DNA of 64,000 nt from a virus. Below the pieces are notes generated by a model. It ran no database searches. It had not been told where the DNA came from and was given only the letters and a program-made list of their open reading frames with translations. The position numbers and the translations under genes are program-made. Shown here one piece after another: positions 18,486 to 50,196 of the stretch. The DNA lies in the IMG/VR virus record IMGVR_UViG_3300035670_000019, positions 1 to 64,000 of that record; one strand, given 5' to 3'. The first letter of the stretch is position 1. Every line of letters starts with the position of its first letter.

Positions 18486-19118
18486 ATGAATAAAGAGTTC
18501 CTTAAAATGCAAAAATTGGCTGGTATTATTACTGAAAGTCAATATAAAGTATCACTAGATGAAATTGAAAACATATATGAATTAGATGATACAGAAAAAA
18601 ATGTAGTTGATGATGTAAAAGATGAAATGTCTGCTATATTAAAAACTTTAGATGCTGAGTTAAATAAAGCATCTAAATCCACTGATCAACCAACAAATGA
18701 AGGTTTATTAACTGCGGCTGGCTTTATTATAGCTCTTCCTGCTATAATGGGATTAATAGCTAAATTTGGAAAAGCAGCTGGTGCTTTAGTTAATAAGATG
18801 TTAGGTAAAAAACCTAATGAAGGTGATGCTTATAATCAATGGTTAACTAAATTAAGTCATATAGCTGATGAATTACATCATTTGTATTTAGTCCCAATTG
18901 AAGGAATTGTTAAAAAATTTGTTAAAGATCCTAAAAAAGCCCATAATATATCTAATGGAATTTTTCATATTATAGTAGCTGTTTTCTTAGTAGCTTCTGG
19001 AGTCACAGCTGTGAAAGCCTTCCAAGCCAAAAATATATCATTAACCACTTTAGAAAGTGCTTTAACTGCTGTCAAATCAGGAGAAATACAAGCGTTTTTA
19101 GAAAAATTATTCGCTTAA
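18486..19118 (+). CDS. Class B leader protein with two membrane-type segments (putative internal/ejected protein)
   Basis: 210 residues. It starts MNKEFLKMQKLAGIITE, the class B leader, with I-T-E ending at residue 17. Two hydrophobic stretches follow: around residues 74-92 (LLTAAGFIIALPAIMGLIAK) and 155-178 (GIFHIIVAVFLVASGVTAV). A soluble protein of the head core would not need them, so after processing the protein may insert into the host membrane during genome entry. That is inference. The leader DNA is almost identical to that at 28388 and inside 19155-20189. It begins six bases after the previous stop. Confidence 0.6.
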   Translation: MNKEFLKMQKLAGIITESQYKVSLDEIENIYELDDTEKNVVDDVKDEMSAILKTLDAELNKASKSTDQPTNEGLLTAAGFIIALPAIMGLIAKFGKAAGALVNKMLGKKPNEGDAYNQWLTKLSHIADELHHLYLVPIEGIVKKFVKDPKKAHNISNGIFHIIVAVFLVASGVTAVKAFQAKNISLTTLESALTAVKSGEIQAFLEKLFA

Positions 19119-19154: not shown

Positions 19155-20189
19155 ATGCAAATAGAAAGATTACGTTCTCTTATTAAAGAATCAATTCAAG
19201 AATATATTAAAGAAATTGATGAAGCAGCTGAGACTGCCGCTATGGAAGCTCGCATCGCTAAATGTGATGAAGCTATTTTAGCCCGTGAAACTAGACTCGA
19301 AAACCTTAGAAACTTAGAAGAAGCAGCTGATATGCTGGATGAAGTTAAAGTTAAAGCTATGGAAAATGAGATTAAAGAGCTTAAAAAAGCTAAAGCTAAA
19401 TTTGAAAAAGATAAAGAAAAAAAAGCAGCTAAAAAAGCTGGTAAAGGTAAAAAAGAAGTAACTACTGATGCTAAAACTGAAGACACTCCTGTTGATGAGT
19501 CTGACGTAATGGAGAAAATGGAAATGGAAGGTGAAGAACCAAAAGAAAAAGCATTAAATGAGTCATTCCTTAAAATGCAAAAATTAGCAGGTGTTATTAC
19601 TGAGGCTCAATATAATCAGAAAAAAAAAGCCTTAACTGAAAACCAAATAACTAATAACCCTGAATTCAGTAAGATAGAAGATAAAGCTTACAGTTTTATT
19701 AATAGTCCTGAAGTAACTGCTTTACTCACTAAAGAACTAAATAAACTATCACCTGAAGAAAAAACAGAATTATCAAAAAATATTATGTCCGAAGGAGGAT
19801 CAGATAAATCTGATTTTAAATCAACTATAGAAAAAGCTATGAGTGCTATCTCTTTAAATGAAGATATGCATGATGCTATTAGAAAATTAGGTGGATACAA
19901 GCCAGGCCAAGAACCTACAGTTATGGATAAAGCCGCGGGTAAAGTTTTACAAGGTTTAGGAGTGAGTAATATCATGTCAATGGGAACATTACCTAGCCTA
20001 GTAGCTATGGCTATAGATAAAGGATTTGACATTAACCTTATGAAAATGGTTTCAGATATGCTTGGAAGTACACAAGCTGCTGTTGGAGCATCAGTCTTAG
20101 GTGGATTAATAGGAGGTGCGATATTATGGAAAATAGGCAAGATTCTACAAAACGAAAAAACAACTATGGGTACTGCGTTATTTAACTAA
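19155..20189 (+). CDS. Double-leader protein: class A at N-terminus, class B internal, C-terminal membrane segment
   Basis: 344 residues. Residues 1-20 (MQIERLRSLIKESIQEYIKE) are a class A leader ending I-K-E. Residues 25-130 are a Lys/Glu/Ala-rich coiled coil. At residues 137-150 the sequence SFLKMQKLAGVITE repeats the class B leader, with I-T-E ending at 150 followed by AQY. The remainder is a helical domain and a Gly/Ala-rich membrane-type segment near the end (SVLGGLIGGAILWKIGKIL). It reads as two leader-tagged proteins fused in frame, separable by the prohead protease. Two hairpins follow the stop. Confidence 0.6.
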   Translation: MQIERLRSLIKESIQEYIKEIDEAAETAAMEARIAKCDEAILARETRLENLRNLEEAADMLDEVKVKAMENEIKELKKAKAKFEKDKEKKAAKKAGKGKKEVTTDAKTEDTPVDESDVMEKMEMEGEEPKEKALNESFLKMQKLAGVITEAQYNQKKKALTENQITNNPEFSKIEDKAYSFINSPEVTALLTKELNKLSPEEKTELSKNIMSEGGSDKSDFKSTIEKAMSAISLNEDMHDAIRKLGGYKPGQEPTVMDKAAGKVLQGLGVSNIMSMGTLPSLVAMAIDKGFDINLMKMVSDMLGSTQAAVGASVLGGLIGGAILWKIGKILQNEKTTMGTALFN

Positions 20190-22069: not shown

Positions 22070-22087
22070 GTATTTAATTTCTGGTGA

Positions 22088-22095
22088 TATTTATA
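22088..22095 (+). promoter_or_regulatory. Candidate late promoter element TATTTATA
   Basis: Directly before the endonuclease; only three bases separate it from the ATG at 22099, so if it is a promoter the transcript would begin inside the gene or leaderless. Weaker case than others. Confidence 0.25.
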
Positions 22096-22098
22096 ATT

Positions 22099-22710
22099 AT
22101 GAAATATTATGTATATCATTGGATTAGAAAAGATACTAATGAACCTTTTTATGTAGGAAAAGGAACAGGTAATAGAGCAGGTCATAAAAAATCAAATAAA
22201 GGGTGGAAAAATATTACTTCTAAAGTTGAATGCTTTTGGGAAATTATTAAGTATTTTGATGATGAACAAACCGCTTATCTGTATGAACATACTCTTATTG
22301 AAGAATATAAAAAATTGGGGTATAAGATAATTAATCAAACTGAATATTCTAAAGGAGGAGGTACTTGGGCATATACAGATGAAGTAAAACAACGTCAAAG
22401 TAAAAATAGAAAAGGTAAAGGTTTAGGGCCTCGAAGTGAAGAATGGAAGCAAAATATTAGTAAAGCAAACAAAGGTAGAAATATATTATGGGCTAATAAA
22501 ATAGGGGATGCCCTTAGAGGAAAACCTAAAAATTATTTAAGTCATCATAAACCAATACTACAATATGATCTTCAAAATAATCTACTTAATGAATACCAAT
22601 CAGCCCAAGAAGCAGGTAAACATCTAAATAAATCAGGCAATAGTATAGCGGACTGTGCCGCAGGTCGTCAAAAAACAGCTTACGGATTTATTTGGAAATA
22701 TAAAGAATAA
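22099..22710 (+). CDS. GIY-YIG homing-type endonuclease with NUMOD repeats
   Basis: 203 residues from the ATG at 22099. Residues 3-26 hold the nuclease module (YYVYHWIR and FYVGKGTGNR with the catalytic Arg), and a Glu in YLYEHTLIEEY is the likely metal ligand. Residues 96-130 (SKNRKGKGLGPRSEEWKQNI, SKANKGR) match NUMOD3-type DNA-binding repeats, and the C-terminus (PILQYDLQNNLLNEYQSAQE to AYGFIWKYK) matches NUMOD1. This is the standard build of free-standing phage homing endonucleases. It sits between the intact oxidoreductase and a leftover 3' copy of it, as expected if it drove the rearrangement. Confidence 0.88.
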   Translation: MKYYVYHWIRKDTNEPFYVGKGTGNRAGHKKSNKGWKNITSKVECFWEIIKYFDDEQTAYLYEHTLIEEYKKLGYKIINQTEYSKGGGTWAYTDEVKQRQSKNRKGKGLGPRSEEWKQNISKANKGRNILWANKIGDALRGKPKNYLSHHKPILQYDLQNNLLNEYQSAQEAGKHLNKSGNSIADCAAGRQKTAYGFIWKYKE

Positions 22711-35454: not shown

Positions 35455-36066
35455 ATGAAACAAATACTTATTGAAACCCAAACATTCTCTGCCAAACCAG
35501 TCAAATTAATTGAAGGTAAAGGTAGTAATAACAATATATTAGTTCAAGGTATATTAGCAACAGCCGAAGTAAAAAACGGTAATGGTCGCTATTATTCAAG
35601 AGATTTATGGGAAAGAGAAATTAATAAGTATATGGAGAGTGTTAATGCCAATAGAGCATTAGGCGAACTAGATCATCCTGATTCTTCTATTATTAATTTA
35701 AAAAATGTATCCCATAATATTAAAAAAATATGGTGGGATGGAGATAATGTGATGGGAGCAATAGAAATTCTACCTACCCCTTCAGGCAATATATTATCTG
35801 CTTTATTTCAAAACAATATTCCAGTAGGTGTATCATCACGTGGTATGGGTTCATTAAAACAAATGGGTGAACTAATGGAAGTACAAGATGATTTTGAATT
35901 ATTATGTTGGGATTTTGTCTCAACCCCATCAAACCCAGGTTCATATATGAAAGAAAAAGGCATGATGAATGAATCTAAAACACCTCAACAATATAACCAA
36001 TATGCTAAAGTAAATTCTATTATCACAGACATACTTTGTGCTAATGGAACTTGCCCAATATTTTAA
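35455..36066 (+). CDS. 21: Prohead protease (gp21-like)
   Basis: 203 residues (T4 gp21 has 212). H74 in ALGELDHPDSS and S127 or S128 in PVGVSSRGMGS form the herpesvirus/T4-type serine protease site, with KNGNGRYYSRDLW upstream as the usual family start. It should sit in the prohead core, cut itself, the scaffold, the capsid protein and any leader-bearing internal proteins after L/I-x-E, and then be destroyed. Its presence supports the interpretation of the L-x-E and I-x-E leaders in this window. Two hairpins follow the stop. Confidence 0.92.
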   Translation: MKQILIETQTFSAKPVKLIEGKGSNNNILVQGILATAEVKNGNGRYYSRDLWEREINKYMESVNANRALGELDHPDSSIINLKNVSHNIKKIWWDGDNVMGAIEILPTPSGNILSALFQNNIPVGVSSRGMGSLKQMGELMEVQDDFELLCWDFVSTPSNPGSYMKEKGMMNESKTPQQYNQYAKVNSIITDILCANGTCPIF

Positions 36067-36125: not shown

Positions 36126-36264
36126 CCAAAATGTAATTTTTAATAGATCCATATATATGTATATTCAAATATGCTACCCTTTCCCCTTATGTAGCATTAA
36201 TTAGTTAATAAATCTATTACGTTTCCTATTAAACGTATTTCCAAAACAAATTTATTTGAGGACA

Positions 36265-37446
36265 ATGAACAGAGAAATGCTAAAAGAATGCATTGCTGAT
36301 GCTAAAACTATTAGAGAAACAGCAATTGCAAGCGCAAAAGTAGCTCTTGAAGAAGCATTCACTCCCCAACTCACTGCTATGTTTGCTGAAAGGTTAAATG
36401 AGCTTGAATTAGAGGAAGCTGAAACTGAAAAAGAGCCAACTGATGAAATGTACAGTAATGAAGAAAAGAAAGAAGAAAATCTTGAAGAAGATTTTAATCT
36501 TGAAGAACTTCTTGCTGAGTTATCAATGGAAGAAGAACAAGAACCTACAATGGAAGGTGAAGACACGGAAGATGAGCCATTAGAAGAAAATCTAATGCTT
36601 GAAGACATGTCTGACGAAGAAATTGAAGAACTTGTTATGCAAGTCATTGATGACATGATCGCATCTGGTAAGCTTATGCCTGGTGAAGGCGAAGAAGAAG
36701 ACATGGAAGACATGGAAGACATGGGTGATGAAGAAGAAGTAGAAGATGAAGAAATCGATATTGATGAAATTTTATCTGAAGCTGATTCTGAAGAAGTTAA
36801 AGAAGAAATGGTAAATGAAGGAGCAGCAATGGAGCTTTTTCAAGCTATTTTAGATCAATTTAGCTCCGCTAAAGAATTCTTCCAAGGGTTATATGATATA
36901 ATACAACAAGGAGGAGATCCAGAAGTATACATGATGGAAAAAGGACAAAACCCTACAGTTTTAGCTGGCATTGGCTCAGCTTTAGGATTTGGGGTTTTAT
37001 TAGCTAAAGTATTTGGAAAATCTGCTGTTGATAAATTAAAAGCATTTTATCAAAAATATGGTAAAGGAGCTAAATCAACAACTGAAGCTACAAATGAAGA
37101 AATGGAAGAAACTATCAATGAGCTTCGCAAAGAACTCAACGAAGTTAATCTATTAAACGCTAAGCTTCTTTACACCAACAAAATCTTCAAAGCTAAGAAT
37201 CTTACCGAATCAGAAAAAATCAAGGTTTTAAACACGTTTGACAAAGCAGAAACTGTTAAGGAAGTTAAACTCGTATTCGAAACTTTAACTGAATCTTTTA
37301 AAGCTACTACAGCTAAAAAGAATCCAATTAAAGAATCATTAGGATCAGCTTCTAAAACAATTTCAACTGCTACCCCTAAACAACCAATTATTGAGGTTAA
37401 TAGCGCTTTTGCTCGTATGCAGCAACTTGCTGGCCTCAGAAAGTAA
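36265..37446 (+). CDS. 22: Prohead scaffold/core protein (gp22-like)
   Basis: 393 residues from the ATG at 36265, which has GAGG close upstream (an in-frame TTG at 36256 is less likely). The N-terminal part is very acidic, with Glu-rich helices (ERLNELELEEAETEKEPTDE and several more). A short Gly/Ala-rich hydrophobic region near residues 235-255 and a coiled coil follow. The protein ends SAFARMQQLAGLRK. T4 gp22 is likewise acidic and helical, fills the prohead and is cut by gp21; the position between protease and capsid protein matches. The C-terminal motif matches the class B leader of other genes. Confidence 0.85.
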   Translation: MNREMLKECIADAKTIRETAIASAKVALEEAFTPQLTAMFAERLNELELEEAETEKEPTDEMYSNEEKKEENLEEDFNLEELLAELSMEEEQEPTMEGEDTEDEPLEENLMLEDMSDEEIEELVMQVIDDMIASGKLMPGEGEEEDMEDMEDMGDEEEVEDEEIDIDEILSEADSEEVKEEMVNEGAAMELFQAILDQFSSAKEFFQGLYDIIQQGGDPEVYMMEKGQNPTVLAGIGSALGFGVLLAKVFGKSAVDKLKAFYQKYGKGAKSTTEATNEEMEETINELRKELNEVNLLNAKLLYTNKIFKAKNLTESEKIKVLNTFDKAETVKEVKLVFETLTESFKATTAKKNPIKESLGSASKTISTATPKQPIIEVNSAFARMQQLAGLRK

Positions 37447-37484: not shown

Positions 37485-39155
37485 ATGGAAACAATTCAAC
37501 AATTAGTTGAGTCTGCCAACCCATGGAGATCACTTCAGAGTGATGCAGCTAAATTAGCTCGCAAGTGGGAAAAAACCGGCCTTTTGGAAGGTCTTGGTGA
37601 AGACGTCAACAAGAACAACATGGCTTTGATGTTGGAAAACCAAGCAAAGCAATTAGTAGTAGAAACATCTCAAACTGGTACTGGTGCTACTTTTACAGTA
37701 GGCACTGGTGAACAATGGGCTGGTATTGCGCTTCCTTTAGTACGTAAGGTATTTGGTCAGATCGCTGCAAAAGAATTTGTTAGCGTTCAACCAATGAACT
37801 TACCTTCAGGTCTTGTGTTTTTCCTTGACTTCCAGTATGGCACTACTAAGAGCCCATTTACCTCAGGTAATTCTATGTACGGTAATCGTACTTCAACTCA
37901 GTATCCATTTGCTACCCCAGCTGCTGAAGGTGGTTTATATGGTGCTGGTCGTTTTACTTACTCTACTAACCAATTCTCTGCTTCTGTAGCATCTGGTTCT
38001 AACGTTGTTACTCAAGCAACAATTGGTACAGCTACTTGGGCTACAGTAAATTATAATTCTGATTTATCAGCTTCAGTTGCTTCATTATACACTGTCACTA
38101 TCTCAGCTAGTGGTGTACTTTCAAACCCAGATCTAGATGCAGTTCGTGGTTTCTTAGTTAGTGGCTTAACTAATCAAGTTGGTACATACAATCTTCAAGC
38201 TTTCACTACTTATAGTAATTCAACTGATAAAATTACATTTGTAGTATCAGCTTCTTCTTCTCCAACTGGTACAGCTTTAGTAGAATATAACAAAACTACA
38301 GCTGATAACAAGCGTGGTGATTTTGAAGATGGTAGTACATATGCTATTCCTAACGCTGAAAGCTCAACAGCAATTTCTATCCCAGAAATCAACATCTCGA
38401 TGCAATCTCAAGCCATCACAGCTAAGACTAAAAAGTTAAAGGCTGTATGGACTCCTGAATTTGCTCAGGACTTGAACGCATATCAAAACTTAGATGCTGA
38501 AGCTGAATTGACTAACATCATGAGTGAGTACATCTCATTGGAAATCGACCTCGAAATCCTTGATATGTTGATCCAAGATGTTCCTTCAACCAATATTGAA
38601 TATTGGACAGCTCAAAACAATGGTGTTTATAATTCAGCTAACACTAACGGATTTGATTTCCCATCATCAACTAGCCAAACTGGATTCTACAACACTCAAG
38701 GTCAATGGTTCCAAACTCTTGGTACTAAACTTCAAAAGTTGAGCAATAAGATTCACCAGTTAACCCTTCGTGGTGGTGCTAACTTCATGGTAGTTTCTCC
38801 AACTGTAGCTACAATCATCGAGTCTATTCCTGGATTCGCTGCTAACAGCAACGGTGATGCTGCTGACATGGAATATGCATTTGGTGTACAGAAAGCTGGT
38901 CAATTCAACAGCCGTTACACTGTTTATAAGAATCCTTACATGACTGAAAACACTATCTTAGTTGGTTTCCGTGGTAAGCAATTCTTGGAAGCAGGTGCTG
39001 TGTTTGCTCCTTACATTCCATTGATCATGACACCTCTTATCTACGATCCAGATACCTTCACTCCACGTAAAGGTCTCTTGACTCGCTATGCTAAGAAGAT
39101 GTTACGTCCTGAATTCTATGGTAAAGTATTAGTAAGCGGTTTAAATACCCTCTAA
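37485..39155 (+). CDS. 23: Major capsid protein (gp23-like)
   Basis: 556 residues. LKAVWTPEFAQDLNAYQNLD followed by AEAELTNIMSEYISLEIDLE is the gp23 core signature. SVQPMNLPSGLVFFLDFQY matches the N-terminal domain after the cleaved part. As in T4, residues 1-60 form a removable helix region; V-V-E at residues 58-60, before TSQTGTG, is the best cleavage candidate. About 110 residues near 150-265 (Ser/Thr/Ala-rich) form an insertion relative to T4. Codon use is richer in C-ending codons than neighbouring genes, as in a highly expressed gene. A terminator follows. Confidence 0.95.
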   Translation: METIQQLVESANPWRSLQSDAAKLARKWEKTGLLEGLGEDVNKNNMALMLENQAKQLVVETSQTGTGATFTVGTGEQWAGIALPLVRKVFGQIAAKEFVSVQPMNLPSGLVFFLDFQYGTTKSPFTSGNSMYGNRTSTQYPFATPAAEGGLYGAGRFTYSTNQFSASVASGSNVVTQATIGTATWATVNYNSDLSASVASLYTVTISASGVLSNPDLDAVRGFLVSGLTNQVGTYNLQAFTTYSNSTDKITFVVSASSSPTGTALVEYNKTTADNKRGDFEDGSTYAIPNAESSTAISIPEINISMQSQAITAKTKKLKAVWTPEFAQDLNAYQNLDAEAELTNIMSEYISLEIDLEILDMLIQDVPSTNIEYWTAQNNGVYNSANTNGFDFPSSTSQTGFYNTQGQWFQTLGTKLQKLSNKIHQLTLRGGANFMVVSPTVATIIESIPGFAANSNGDAADMEYAFGVQKAGQFNSRYTVYKNPYMTENTILVGFRGKQFLEAGAVFAPYIPLIMTPLIYDPDTFTPRKGLLTRYAKKMLRPEFYGKVLVSGLNTL

Positions 39156-45621: not shown

Positions 45622-48600
45622 ATGGCCCAAGTCTATTTAAGTCAATATTCTAGAAGAGCAGCTGTAGCAGATTCTACAGACTCCGCATCATATGCTGCTA
45701 CAGCTTCATATATTAATCCTATTAGACTTGACCCTATTGAAGACCCAAATCCTACAGGTCTTCTATATCCTACCTCAACCTATTTATATCAAAGTGCTTC
45801 TAACACAGCTTTAGGATATGACTTATATATTCGTCAAGATGGAAATCTTGTAAAATGGAAGTGGGTAGAAGGTATGTTAAATACAGGCCTTCTTTATGGA
45901 GGAGTATTATCATACTCTGCTAGTTCTTTTCTTATAACTTCTGGAGCAGGTTTAATAGTTAATCATAATGCTGTAACTGGTTCTGAAATTAGTCCTATAG
46001 TAGAATATGTGACTTGGGGTCCTATAACTCAAAGTATTGAAAATATAGCCACTTTTCAAAATACATTTGTCTATATAGATGTTAGTGGTAGTGCTAGTCA
46101 ACAAAATGTATTTTTCTCTCCTGATCAATATCAAGAGTATATTCCTATAGGCCGAATATCACATTATGATAATGTGGTTACTAATGGTTCTAACATGAAT
46201 GTTCAAACCGCTTATGACATTGATGGACAACAAAGTGTTTTTGTTAGAGCATTTGGACCTTTAAAACTAACAGGTATAGCCACTAGTGGACAAGCTGGTA
46301 CTTTAAGATTAAATATAGGATCTGGAAGAGCATTTAGTTTAGGGCAATTCTATCCCTACAACCCAGAAACACCTAGTACATATGATGTATCAACTTATAA
46401 TACAGCTAGTATTATAAAAATATATAGAGATGGTGCTGGAGAGTATGTTTTTGATAACAATAGTGGAAATTATTATACTACTATAACTACTAATCTATAT
46501 GATGATGGAACAGGTACTTTAGCTGCAGTTGGTAATAATGAGTGGACTATTCAGCGTGTGATGGTAAATCCTGTCACAGGTAGAGCCCACGTTTATTATG
46601 GACAAAATGTTTATCCTACTTTTGATGAAGCAGTAGCAGATATATTTGCAGATGAATTTGTAGAAAGTGATGCTACAGCTTATTCTTATGTTTTTTCAGC
46701 TTATTTAGTTGTAAAAGGATTAACATCTGATTTAACAGATGATACTGAAAATAAAATAGTTCAAGCTGGTTTATTTAGAAATATAGCTGGTGGAGGAGGA
46801 GCAGGAGGTGGAGGAGTACCTGGTGGTCAAGACACTCAAATACAGTTTAATAATAATGGTGTATTTGATGGTGAACCTGAATTTACTTATAACTACACTG
46901 ATAGTATTGTCACATTAACAGGTTCAATGTTTGTAAGTGGAGCAATTTCTGCTTCATATGGACCTAGTACTGTAGGGTTTTATGGTACAGCAAGTTGGGC
47001 TGTGAGTGCTTCTCAAGCAGTATCTGCATCATATGCTTTTTCTGCCTCTTATGCTTTATCAAGTTCAAGAGCAACAACTGCTTCTTATGCTTTAACAGCT
47101 AGTTTTGCTACTACATCATCATATGCTTCTTCTAGCCCTAACTTTGCTAATACTGATTTAGTATTTACTTCTAATAGAAAACATGATACTAATAGATATT
47201 CTTATTTTATATATAGTGATTTAGTAGGAGGTGATGAAACAGATCCTTTTCAAGGATTTGGTGTTAGTGGTAGTTTCCATTACTTTAACACAGGATCAAA
47301 TGTTTTAGGAACAGCAGCTGGATCAACAAGTACTTACACTTACATTGAGATAACATCTCAATCTATTGATTTAAGTTTTAACGCTGATCCTGCTGTACCA
47401 AGTTCTTATACTTTTACTAAAAACTCTGCTTCTTTCTCTAGTTCTTTAACTGTAACCAAATCAGTATATTTTCCTGGTTTAACATCTGCCTCACGACCAA
47501 ATGTTGTAATGATAGATACAGCTTCAGGTCAACTATATTATTTAGACTCTTCTTCTTTAGGAGGAGCTACAGCAGATATAGCTATATCATCTTCAGGCAC
47601 TGGATTAACAGCAACTGTAGAATCTATAAACTTTGCAGGCGCTGGAGTGGTAGCTACAACTGTTGGAAACAATGTAACAGTGACTATTCCTGGAGGAGCA
47701 GGAGTTGCAGGTGGAGCAAATACTCAAATACAATTTAATAGTGGAAGTGAATTTAGTGGAAGCGGAAACTTCTCATTTAATTATGACAATAATATTGTTT
47801 ATTTAACAGGTTCAATGATAGTAAGTGGTAGTACCACATTAACAGGCTCAATGTTTGTTAGTGGTGCTATTTCCGCGTCATTTGGGCCTAACACTGTTGG
47901 ATTCTTTGGTACTGCATCTTGGGCTCAAAGTGCATCTCAAGCTGTAAGTTCAAGTTATAGTTTAAGTAGCAGTTACGCCTTATCAGCATCATATGCTTTA
48001 TCAAGTTCTTATGCTTTAAGTTCAAGTTATGCTTTATCTTCTTCGTATGCATTAAGTAGTAGCTATGCTTTAAGTTCATCTTACGCCTTAAGCTCTAGTT
48101 ATACTTTATCAAGTTCTTACAGTCTAAGTAGTTCTTATGCGTTAAGCTCTAGTTATGCTTTATCAAGTTCATATGCTCTTAGCGCGTCATACTCTTTAAG
48201 TAGTAGTTATGCTTTAAGTGCTTCATACAGTGATACAAGTTCATTCTCATTTACTTCATCATTAGCATATACTGCTTCGTTTATAACCGCTTCTAATGTA
48301 TGGGGACCATTTGGTTCTAGTAGTGTTGCAAGTGCATCCTTTGCTTCATCATCTGTTAGTGCGTCTTATGCTACTACAGCAGTAACCTCTTCTTACCCAA
48401 TTAATGTAACAGGTAGTACCTTGTATTCTGTAGCTCCTGTTTCTGGAATACCTAATATACCATCAGCTGATAATAGCATATTTTTTGGTTCTGAATCTGG
48501 TCTTAATGCTGTAAGTGCTTCATATTCAAACTTTATAGGTACCCAAGCCGGTAGGGAAGCAACCACAGCCTCATATTCAAACTTTATAGGCAATCAAGCT

Positions 48601-50196
48601 GGTAGAAATGCTTCTCGAGCTAATAATTCAAACTTCATAGGATATTTAGCAGGCAATGAAGCCACAACTGCTAGTAATTCTAACTTTATAGGAAACAGTG
48701 CTGGTAACAATGCTGCAAACGCTAATAACTCAAACTTTTTAGGGGACTCAGCGGGTAGGAGTGCTACAAATGCCTCATACTCAAATTTTTTAGGTGTTAA
48801 TGCGGGCAATGAAGCCACAAATGCTCCATACTCAAACTTTTTAGGATCTGGCACAGGTCAATCATCTACAAACGCTAACAACTCAAACTTTTTAGGTTAT
48901 CGTGCTGGTTATCAAGCTACAGACGCTTCATACTCAAACTTTATAGGTAGACAAGCAGGTTACATTGCTCTTAATGCTCAATATTCTAACTTTATAGGAA
49001 ACAATGCTGGTAACAATGCTGCAAACGCTAATAACTCAAACTTTTTAGGTAACCAGGCTGGTATTTTAGCTGCTAATGCTTCCCACTCAAACTTTTTAGG
49101 TAACGAGGCTGGTTACCAAGCCGCTTCTGCCTCATATTCAACATTGATTGGTTATCAAGTTGGATACGCTACTCATCCTTCTATGAGTATAGGTTCTAAC
49201 AATATTATAGTAGGTACTAATATAACACTTCCAACAGGTAGTAAAAATTCAATTAATTTAGGAGGAATTATATTTGCCACAGGATCATATGCTAATACTA
49301 CATTTGCTACATTCTCAGGTTCAGCAGGCGGTAAAGTTGGTATCAATGTATACCCACCAGAGTATAATTTACATGTATCAGGAACAGTAGCATTTCCTAA
49401 CTTAACAAATTCATCGCAGATTAATCTTGTTGTTGTAGATACAGCTTCAGGACAATTATTTTACTTACCTACATCTTCAGTTGGAGGAGGAGGAGGTGGA
49501 GGTGATATAACAGCAGTTAATGCTGGAGATGGTTTAAGCGGAGGAGGTTCATCTGGAGATGTAACCTTATCATTAAATACAGGATCAACCCATTTTATAG
49601 ATGGAGTGTATGCTTTAACAGGAAGTTTATTAACAACATCTTCCTTTAATAACTGGACAGGATCAACCACTAGCCAATTTGCTGGAACTGCTTCATATGC
49701 TACTTTTGCTAGTGCCGCATATGCTGCTCCTTCTGATACTTATATTCAATTTAATAGTGGAGGATTATTTTCAGGATCACAAAACTTTATTTTTGATTAT
49801 ACTGCAAATCAAGTCATTGTGACTGGTTCTACAGTAACATTAGGCACTTCATCCATTGATGGTATAGCTTTAATAGGCACTTCCTCAGCGTATGCTTTAT
49901 ACACTACAGCTAAAATTACAACTGTAAGTGGTATTAACACTATTTATTCTTTACAAACAGCCTCATATGATGGAGCATTTTTTGATTATACATTAATATC
50001 AGGATTAAATGCTAGAGCAGGACAAATAATGTCTATATGGAGTGGTAGTGAAGTAAGATACACAGAAACAACAACAACAGATATAGGATCAACCTCTGAA
50101 TTTATATTTTCAGTAGCATTAACAGCAGGTTCTGCTTCACTACAAGTGACAGGATCTACAGGTGCAGTAATAAAAACAATAATAAAAAGTATATAA
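45622..50196 (+). CDS. Long tail fibre with hexapeptide and 17-residue repeats
   Basis: 1524 residues, the longest protein in the window. An N-terminal non-repetitive domain (about 1-390) probably attaches to the virion (QVYLSQYSRRAAVADSTDSA). Gly-rich GGGGAGGGGVPGG forms a hinge near 393. Two similar cassettes of the type FVSGAISASYGP / GTASWA follow. Residues 778-873 are 16 units of S-Y-A-L-S-S. Residues 968-1188 are 13 units of Y-S-N-F-I-G-x-x-A-G-x-x-A-x-x-A-x. Conserved DTASGQLFYLPTSS modules precede the C-terminal part. The long regular repeats predict a rod-like, probably trimeric fibre. Confidence 0.82.
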   Translation: MAQVYLSQYSRRAAVADSTDSASYAATASYINPIRLDPIEDPNPTGLLYPTSTYLYQSASNTALGYDLYIRQDGNLVKWKWVEGMLNTGLLYGGVLSYSASSFLITSGAGLIVNHNAVTGSEISPIVEYVTWGPITQSIENIATFQNTFVYIDVSGSASQQNVFFSPDQYQEYIPIGRISHYDNVVTNGSNMNVQTAYDIDGQQSVFVRAFGPLKLTGIATSGQAGTLRLNIGSGRAFSLGQFYPYNPETPSTYDVSTYNTASIIKIYRDGAGEYVFDNNSGNYYTTITTNLYDDGTGTLAAVGNNEWTIQRVMVNPVTGRAHVYYGQNVYPTFDEAVADIFADEFVESDATAYSYVFSAYLVVKGLTSDLTDDTENKIVQAGLFRNIAGGGGAGGGGVPGGQDTQIQFNNNGVFDGEPEFTYNYTDSIVTLTGSMFVSGAISASYGPSTVGFYGTASWAVSASQAVSASYAFSASYALSSSRATTASYALTASFATTSSYASSSPNFANTDLVFTSNRKHDTNRYSYFIYSDLVGGDETDPFQGFGVSGSFHYFNTGSNVLGTAAGSTSTYTYIEITSQSIDLSFNADPAVPSSYTFTKNSASFSSSLTVTKSVYFPGLTSASRPNVVMIDTASGQLYYLDSSSLGGATADIAISSSGTGLTATVESINFAGAGVVATTVGNNVTVTIPGGAGVAGGANTQIQFNSGSEFSGSGNFSFNYDNNIVYLTGSMIVSGSTTLTGSMFVSGAISASFGPNTVGFFGTASWAQSASQAVSSSYSLSSSYALSASYALSSSYALSSSYALSSSYALSSSYALSSSYALSSSYTLSSSYSLSSSYALSSSYALSSSYALSASYSLSSSYALSASYSDTSSFSFTSSLAYTASFITASNVWGPFGSSSVASASFASSSVSASYATTAVTSSYPINVTGSTLYSVAPVSGIPNIPSADNSIFFGSESGLNAVSASYSNFIGTQAGREATTASYSNFIGNQAGRNASRANNSNFIGYLAGNEATTASNSNFIGNSAGNNAANANNSNFLGDSAGRSATNASYSNFLGVNAGNEATNAPYSNFLGSGTGQSSTNANNSNFLGYRAGYQATDASYSNFIGRQAGYIALNAQYSNFIGNNAGNNAANANNSNFLGNQAGILAANASHSNFLGNEAGYQAASASYSTLIGYQVGYATHPSMSIGSNNIIVGTNITLPTGSKNSINLGGIIFATGSYANTTFATFSGSAGGKVGINVYPPEYNLHVSGTVAFPNLTNSSQINLVVVDTASGQLFYLPTSSVGGGGGGGDITAVNAGDGLSGGGSSGDVTLSLNTGSTHFIDGVYALTGSLLTTSSFNNWTGSTTSQFAGTASYATFASAAYAAPSDTYIQFNSGGLFSGSQNFIFDYTANQVIVTGSTVTLGTSSIDGIALIGTSSAYALYTTAKITTVSGINTIYSLQTASYDGAFFDYTLISGLNARAGQIMSIWSGSEVRYTETTTTDIGSTSEFIFSVALTAGSASLQVTGSTGAVIKTIIKSI
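47953..48240 (+). repeat. 18-bp tandem repeat (16 units)
   Basis: Sixteen consecutive 18-base units encode the hexapeptide SYALSS with a few variants (SYSLSS, SYALSA, SYTLSS). Ser is written with AGT, AGC, TCA, TCT and TCG codons in a mixed order, so the DNA units differ while the peptide stays constant. Confidence 0.9.
48523..49185 (+). repeat. 51-bp tandem repeat (13 units)
   Basis: Thirteen gap-free units of 17 codons with the pattern YSNFIG-xxAG-xxA-xxA-x. Units at 48676 and 48982 are almost identical over the stretch encoding GNNAANANNSNFLG, indicating recent exchange between copies. Confidence 0.9.

Follow-up and report, generated by a model that had tools for sequence, protein, structure and literature searches.

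The prohead protease gp21 of phage T4 cleaves behind L/I-x-E, and for targeting to the head a short terminal sequence is enough; such a tag sends the unrelated proteins IPI-III and Alt to the prohead and is removed by the gp21-type protease (PMC9026906). In the excerpts available on the giant phages phiKZ and SPN3US, many packaged head proteins carry removable propeptides cut by a prohead protease, S/A-x-E is given as the phiKZ motif, and no tag common to the scaffold tail is described. Polyvalent proteins hold several parts, including several enzymatic domains, in one probably packaged chain, and their release by proteolysis is presumed (PMC5512222). Shigella mxiE and spa13 and Citrobacter tssM feature a long homopolymer with open frames for a short and a long product; slippage at runs of at least 9 A is established in bacteria, with about 20% in Citrobacter tssM1 as an example (PMC5009743, PMC4256274).

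The 344 aa gene described here lies in a window of 64,000 nucleotides, the opening part of a virus record of 163,030 bases. Its product is probably a two-part head-packaging protein, in which a scaffold-like carrier is fused to a cargo that would be excised by a gp21-type protease; as with IPI-III and Alt, a short tag would send the protein to the prohead and then be removed. This tag, termed class B, differs from the T4 capsid targeting sequence in that it matches the scaffold's own C-terminal tail, may be N-terminal, C-terminal or internal, where it joins two proteins in one chain, and is followed by a variable tag-cargo junction. As at the position of the T4-type core scaffold gp22, the tag of the scaffold gene stands at the gene end after an [IL]-x-E site, and gp22 of cyanophage P-SSM4, which ends QPLVESNVSG..., has a similar layout; unlike a gp22-type scaffold, however, the coil-cargo protein has the tail in common and nothing else. 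Processing of packaged proteins by a prohead protease, as in phiKZ and SPN3US, is predicted here as well, although not at the S/A-x-E motif of phiKZ. The likeness to polyvalent proteins lies in several parts carried on one chain, but Pfam and PHROG scans of the 344 aa protein gave no enzymatic, peptidase or other domain above threshold and no function for the cargo, so it was not assigned to that group; release would need the head protease in trans.

Gene Layout and Genome Setting

Table 1. Features of the 344 aa gene and of its genome setting; a slash marks a candidate cut.
Feature	Position	Strand	Basis
Neighbouring class-B-led gene, 210 aa, two hydrophobic segments	18486..19118	+	hydropathy, leader match
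Whole fused gene, 344 aa	19155..20189	+	open for 344 codons
Class A N-terminal leader, residues 1-23, candidate site IDE23/A	19155..19223	+	sequence, orthologue conservation
Coiled-coil hairpin (model helices 2-53, 63-99)	19224..19454	+	pLDDT mostly >85
Linker, predicted disordered	19455..19553	+	pLDDT <50 at residues 98-130
Upstream cleavage-type site L134-N-E136	19554..19562	+	sequence, orthologue conservation
Class B tag SFLKMQKLAG, residues 137-146	19563..19592	+	sequence, leader match, orthologues
I148-T-E150 site, at turn before second tag helix	19596..19604	+	sequence and model
Run of 9 A at tag-cargo junction	19620..19628	+	sequence
Third site L160-T-E162/N, predicted mature-cargo start 163	19632..19640	+	sequence, junction conservation
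Cargo segment, residues 163-344, homologue of class-B-led gene in L184	19641..20186	+	BLAST homology
L234-N-E236 site within cargo segment	19854..19862	+	sequence
Prohead protease, Peptidase_S77 (T4 gp21 family)	35455..36066	+	PF03420, E=1.8e-29
Gene at core scaffold position, tag in C-terminus PIIE-VNSAFARMQQLAGLRK	36256..37446	+	read from sequence
Major capsid protein, Gp23 family	37485..39155	+	PF07068, E=2.6e-72

The window encodes both an S77 protease of the gp21 type and a gp23-type capsid protein, the pair that marks phages with T4-type processed internal head proteins; a T4-type head maturation system is therefore present. The terminase shares 60% identity with its counterpart in Flavobacterium phage immuto. 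An earlier sequence-only reading had recognized a class A leader at the start of the 344 aa gene, and this gene does begin MQIERLRSLIKESIQEYIKEIDEAAE, on the pattern of other N-termini in the genome. The class B motif that it placed inside the ORF, with an I-T-E site at 150, is likewise found: residues 134-150 in the translation of 19155-20189 are LNE-SFLKMQKLAG-V-ITE, with an exact match to the motif at S137-G146 and the site at 148-150, its Glu at 150.

The structure of the coil and tag is modelled as a helical hairpin (2-53 and 63-99), a disordered linker (98-130) and two tag helices (129-144 and 150-161) with ITE at the turn between them; in the model the tag is carried on a flexible arm. 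The model of the cargo was unusable (pLDDT 42), and no fold search was made with it. The membrane segment formerly proposed within 151-344 is weak, as the best 19-residue hydropathy window reaches 1.64, at residue 309; the helical, glycine-rich end of the cargo may insert into a membrane, although its hydropathy is no more than moderate.

The product of the neighbouring gene at 18486-19118 has two strong hydrophobic segments with hydropathy peaks of 2.3 and is possibly a packaged membrane protein. ORFs resembling GIY-YIG endonucleases are found near the cargo locus at 22084-22710 and in several relatives, including the collected loci L002 (6162-6755) and L012 (5595-6188); these might mobilise the cargo locus. 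A long tail-fibre-like ORF with numerous SSYALSSSYALS repeats occupies 45622-50196.

A Tag Shared by Scaffold, Coil and Cargo

Of the ORFs in the 163 kb genome, just five contain the class B motif; it is N-terminal in three, internal in 19155-20189 and C-terminal in the gene directly before the capsid gene. The copy in the 344 aa protein matches the N-terminus of the 18486-19118 product with 15/20 identities (E=9e-8), and since N135-E136, F138, M141-Q142-K143, A145-G146 and I148 are invariant across 14 orthologues, its presence in the fused gene is not due to chance. The orthologues mostly have a 'YKDIEVTDKYIIREF' gene on one side and a 'MNIFYINEDPI' gene on the other; in L001 (...LNESFIRMQKIAGIIK), L012, L016, L018 and L019 the coil protein ends in the tag.

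The tag is also the C-terminus of the scaffold-position gene directly before the major capsid protein gene in 29/29 distinct loci (36256-37446 here; L025-L064, L080, L159, L176, L184, L067 and L205), with [LIVM]xE just upstream in 28; read directly, the scaffold-position genes of immuto and Mel-JY01 likewise end in the tag after a site. Residues 134-146 of the 344 aa protein have the make-up of such a core-scaffold tail, namely an RxQxLAG-type motif with [LI]xE upstream. Because both the scaffold-position and the coil proteins end in the motif, the class B leader and the scaffold C-terminal tail are one element. The earlier view of this element as the leader of a second gene holds insofar as the motif is of the leader type; it is, however, equally the tag in which the first gene and the scaffold regularly end, and on these comparisons the motif is a movable head tag and not solely a leader. 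A literature search found no paper containing the tag sequence. The immuto scaffold (L067, 40583-41824) contains a direct repeat of ~50 residues (EGFEQWLDSVSAQMDKFGKNNPTIQAIEKAV...) and carries the annotation 'DNA polymerase phi-like'.

Scaffold tails in other capsid systems dock on the shell. Since the tag copies the C-terminal tail of the scaffold, the two probably share a docking partner in the prohead, by analogy most likely the capsid shell.

Cleavage-Type Sites and Putative Protease Signature

Sites of the type [LIVM]xE are found upstream of 32/33 C-terminal tags, with a site beyond the tag in only one case, and downstream of 103/110 N-terminal tags, partly owing to the design of the search; internal tags have sites both upstream and downstream in 30/34, a few of these 34 being false or mis-started. 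Because the search pattern used to retrieve L068-L147 and the series from there up to L187 itself included I[ST]E, the frequency of ITE is biased in these loci. In the window the tag, with its putative role in targeting, is accompanied by LNE136, ITE150 and LTE162.

The third of these sites has a counterpart in most relatives: [LIV]xE precedes the cargo after an internal tag at 40/42 junctions, against 11% expected (p=4e-36), and the cargos concerned are mostly unrelated to each other. In L002 the third site aligns with the leader's own ITE/NQ of the class-B-led relative L085; the corresponding position of the window reads LTE162/NQ, and the mature cargo therefore probably starts at 163. A product 151-344 had been predicted from the I-T-E site, and ITE150 is indeed conserved, but on these comparisons N163 is the more likely start of the released cargo. 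Within the coil, [LI]xE recurs at 54-56, 61-63 and 73-75; this richness in sites makes degradation more probable than release of the stable peptide, approximately 21-150, that had been envisaged.

In 82 class-B-led cargos [LI]xE is depleted (125 observed, 167 expected; z=-4.1), while it is enriched in the coils (76 versus 49, z=+4.4) as well as in 181 control ORFs (z=+5.2), all z-scores being approximate as some cargos are related to each other. No depletion of [LI]xE is seen in the scaffold, nor of the control motif [LI]xD. The fused cargos taken alone reach no more than z=-1.9, and the window cargo alone has 1 site versus 2.1 expected, numbers too small to tell. The depletion is as expected if class-B-led cargos meet a gp21-type protease, of which it would be an independent sign.

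Stand-Alone Halves and Cargo Exchange

A search for relatives with the two halves as separate genes had been proposed as a check, and such relatives exist for both. The N-terminal half is a separate gene in five loci (L001, L012, L016, L019 and L232); the window cargo matches a class-B-led 243 aa gene in L184 (E=5e-31), a relative detected solely by BLAST against the ORFs of the collected loci. This gene is located in the head operon between the prohead protease and the scaffold gene, where L184 (1360-4726, minus strand) has two class-B-led cargo genes. Exact peptide patterns from cargo residues 155-344 found no relative in viral contigs, and phage record searches with the whole 344 aa protein and with the L184 cargo gave no match. 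Eight more fused cargos have stand-alone class-B-led homologues by BLAST (fused/stand-alone: L002/L085, L231/L238, L242/L123, L241/L115, L014/L102, L099/L186, L212/L092 and L224/L143).

Close orthologues display unrelated cargos after one conserved junction, ITE.QYNQKK.L.EN, and near relatives differ in having a cargo at all, as in L001 (without) versus L230 (with) and L012 (without) versus L231 (with). The tree requires at least four changes of cargo state, two of which are forced by well-supported branches, and one module is found before the tag in L018 and after the tag in L181. Exchange at one junction, with a module on either side of the tag, is expected from recombination at the shared tag. 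The ORF had been taken for an in-frame fusion of two cargo genes; both halves do stand alone in relatives, but the tag is common to both partners and not the second gene's alone, and the comparison supports as largely right a fusion of a coil-tag gene with a class-B-led cargo gene.

Serially fused relatives of ~490-620 aa (L068, L106, L121, L128, L153, L161, L172, L217 and L244) begin with a class A leader and a small domain, to which an extra cargo is added in some, and continue with a class-A-like start, the coil, the tag and a cargo; the internal class-A-like start retains its methionine (such as 'MSELEKYIKK'). These proteins appear as if several genes had merged, and the window gene represents a short version of the class. 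In L121 (619 aa), L153, L172, L161, L244 and L068 internal methionines often stand right after L-x-E or I-x-E type sites.

The Poly-A Run and Alternative Explanations

The window copy of the junction has A9 with the cargo in frame; one extra A at 19620-19628 would end the first gene at QKKKSLN and a stop. L002 has A10 and ends RQKKKLN before a stop; beyond the run its cargo stays open in the +1 frame, where the first 51 codons include no ATG and show a dN/dS of 0.15 against L085. A separate second gene from ATG 5209 of L002 was considered and rejected, as the +1 frame lacks stops and retains homology to L085 as far back as the A run. Loci in which the frame of the cargo is shifted relative to the tag are L002, L121, L152, L161, L171, L175, L214, L219 and L230. 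In all collected sequence such out-of-frame, start-less, open cargo frames follow 9/25 runs of at least A8 after tags versus 1/115 elsewhere (p=4e-7), and 7/20 versus 0/28 for runs of at least A9; the run with a start-less second open frame that characterizes slippage genes is found at these nine related junctions, and the window A9 is in frame. L068 and L171 represent a single phage, differing over 1,120 bp by one A and one substitution, with the cargo in frame in just one of them, and L121 (A9, +1) and L214 (A10, -1) have the same cargo, out of frame in both, with dN/dS 0.16. A scan of genome contigs for the tag with an A run found none, and no RNA families were found at the locus.

The fusion is very unlikely to be an assembly artefact in which a base missing from the A run merged two genes: one A more would give the first gene an end much like that of L002, but in-frame fused orthologues with A6-A10 are seen in L221, L224, L239, L231, L236, L241, L223 and L212, residues 158-210 are open without an ATG, GTG or TTG codon, so that a separate second gene would have no start there, and other ORFs with runs of at least A9 show no such break. 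Error in sequencing does not by itself account for where the frame breaks fall; RNA slippage, DNA phase variation and tolerated cargo loss remain as readings. By either of the former two the run would be a working switch between coil-tag and coil-tag-cargo products that sets the amount of cargo, a proposal that can be put forward only tentatively and that supplements, without replacing, the explanation by fusion and packaging. The excess of out-of-frame cargos after tags, the L068/L171 and L121/L214 pairs and the slippage established at such runs in bacteria (PMC5009743, PMC4256274) argue for the switch; selection for the run is nevertheless not supported, as it is no more common than predicted from the codon usage of conserved lysines (17 observed, 15.1 expected), RNA structure near it is not significant (z -1.2 and -1.4), the shifts go in both directions, and loss of the cargo may simply be tolerated if the coil-tag protein works alone. 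Unlike mxiE, spa13 and tssM, the window copy is in frame.

Two other readings concern the tag and its sites. That the tag is a SHOCT-like helical pair for oligomerisation, with I-T-E as a helix cap and the 344 aa protein staying whole, is unlikely; the modelled helix-turn-helix and a weak Pfam resemblance of I-T-E and the following helix would fit, but at 14.9-15.7 bits the score is far under the curated cut-off of 27, and membership in SHOCT (PF09851) was rejected. The N-terminal leaders, moreover, diverge immediately after ITE, the sites change side with the position of the tag, the third site is kept before unrelated cargos, and [LI]xE is depleted in the cargos, all of which argue against an uncut protein. 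A scheme in which exactly two products arise, a stable coil peptide of approximately 21-150 and a cargo 151-344, agrees with the conserved ITE150 but is improbable in view of LNE136 and LTE162, which are conserved too, and of the additional sites within the coil.

Proposed Mechanism and Significance

Under the preferred reading, a scaffold-like carrier with an excisable cargo, the class A leader and the coil would form a core-scaffold-like carrier with the tag at 137-146 as a copy of the C-terminal tail of the phage scaffold; the cargo (163-344) would have been gained through joining with a class-B-led cargo gene at the tag common to both. In head maturation a gp21-type protease is predicted to cut at LNE136/S, ITE150/A and LTE162/N; these cuts would excise the tag and fragment the coil with its many sites, and the cargo, released inside the head, would be delivered along with the DNA. 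Packaging, cleavage, docking partner and delivery are all predicted from sequence. Slippage at the poly-A run could, as a more doubtful addition, set how often the carrier is extended; one phage would then make the carrier with and without cargo, and lineages would swap cargos at this point.

If true, this would amount to one removable address tag, common to scaffold and cargo, which works at either end of a protein or in its middle. It would provide a simple rule to predict head-borne proteins in a large group of uncultured T4-like phages, explain the swapping of cargos between phages and represent a natural design for protein loading into capsids. A frame switch governing the amount of cargo is a further, testable possibility suggested by the junction data. 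The pairing of one tag with many different passengers across related viruses could account for the swapping of packaged proteins in these phages.
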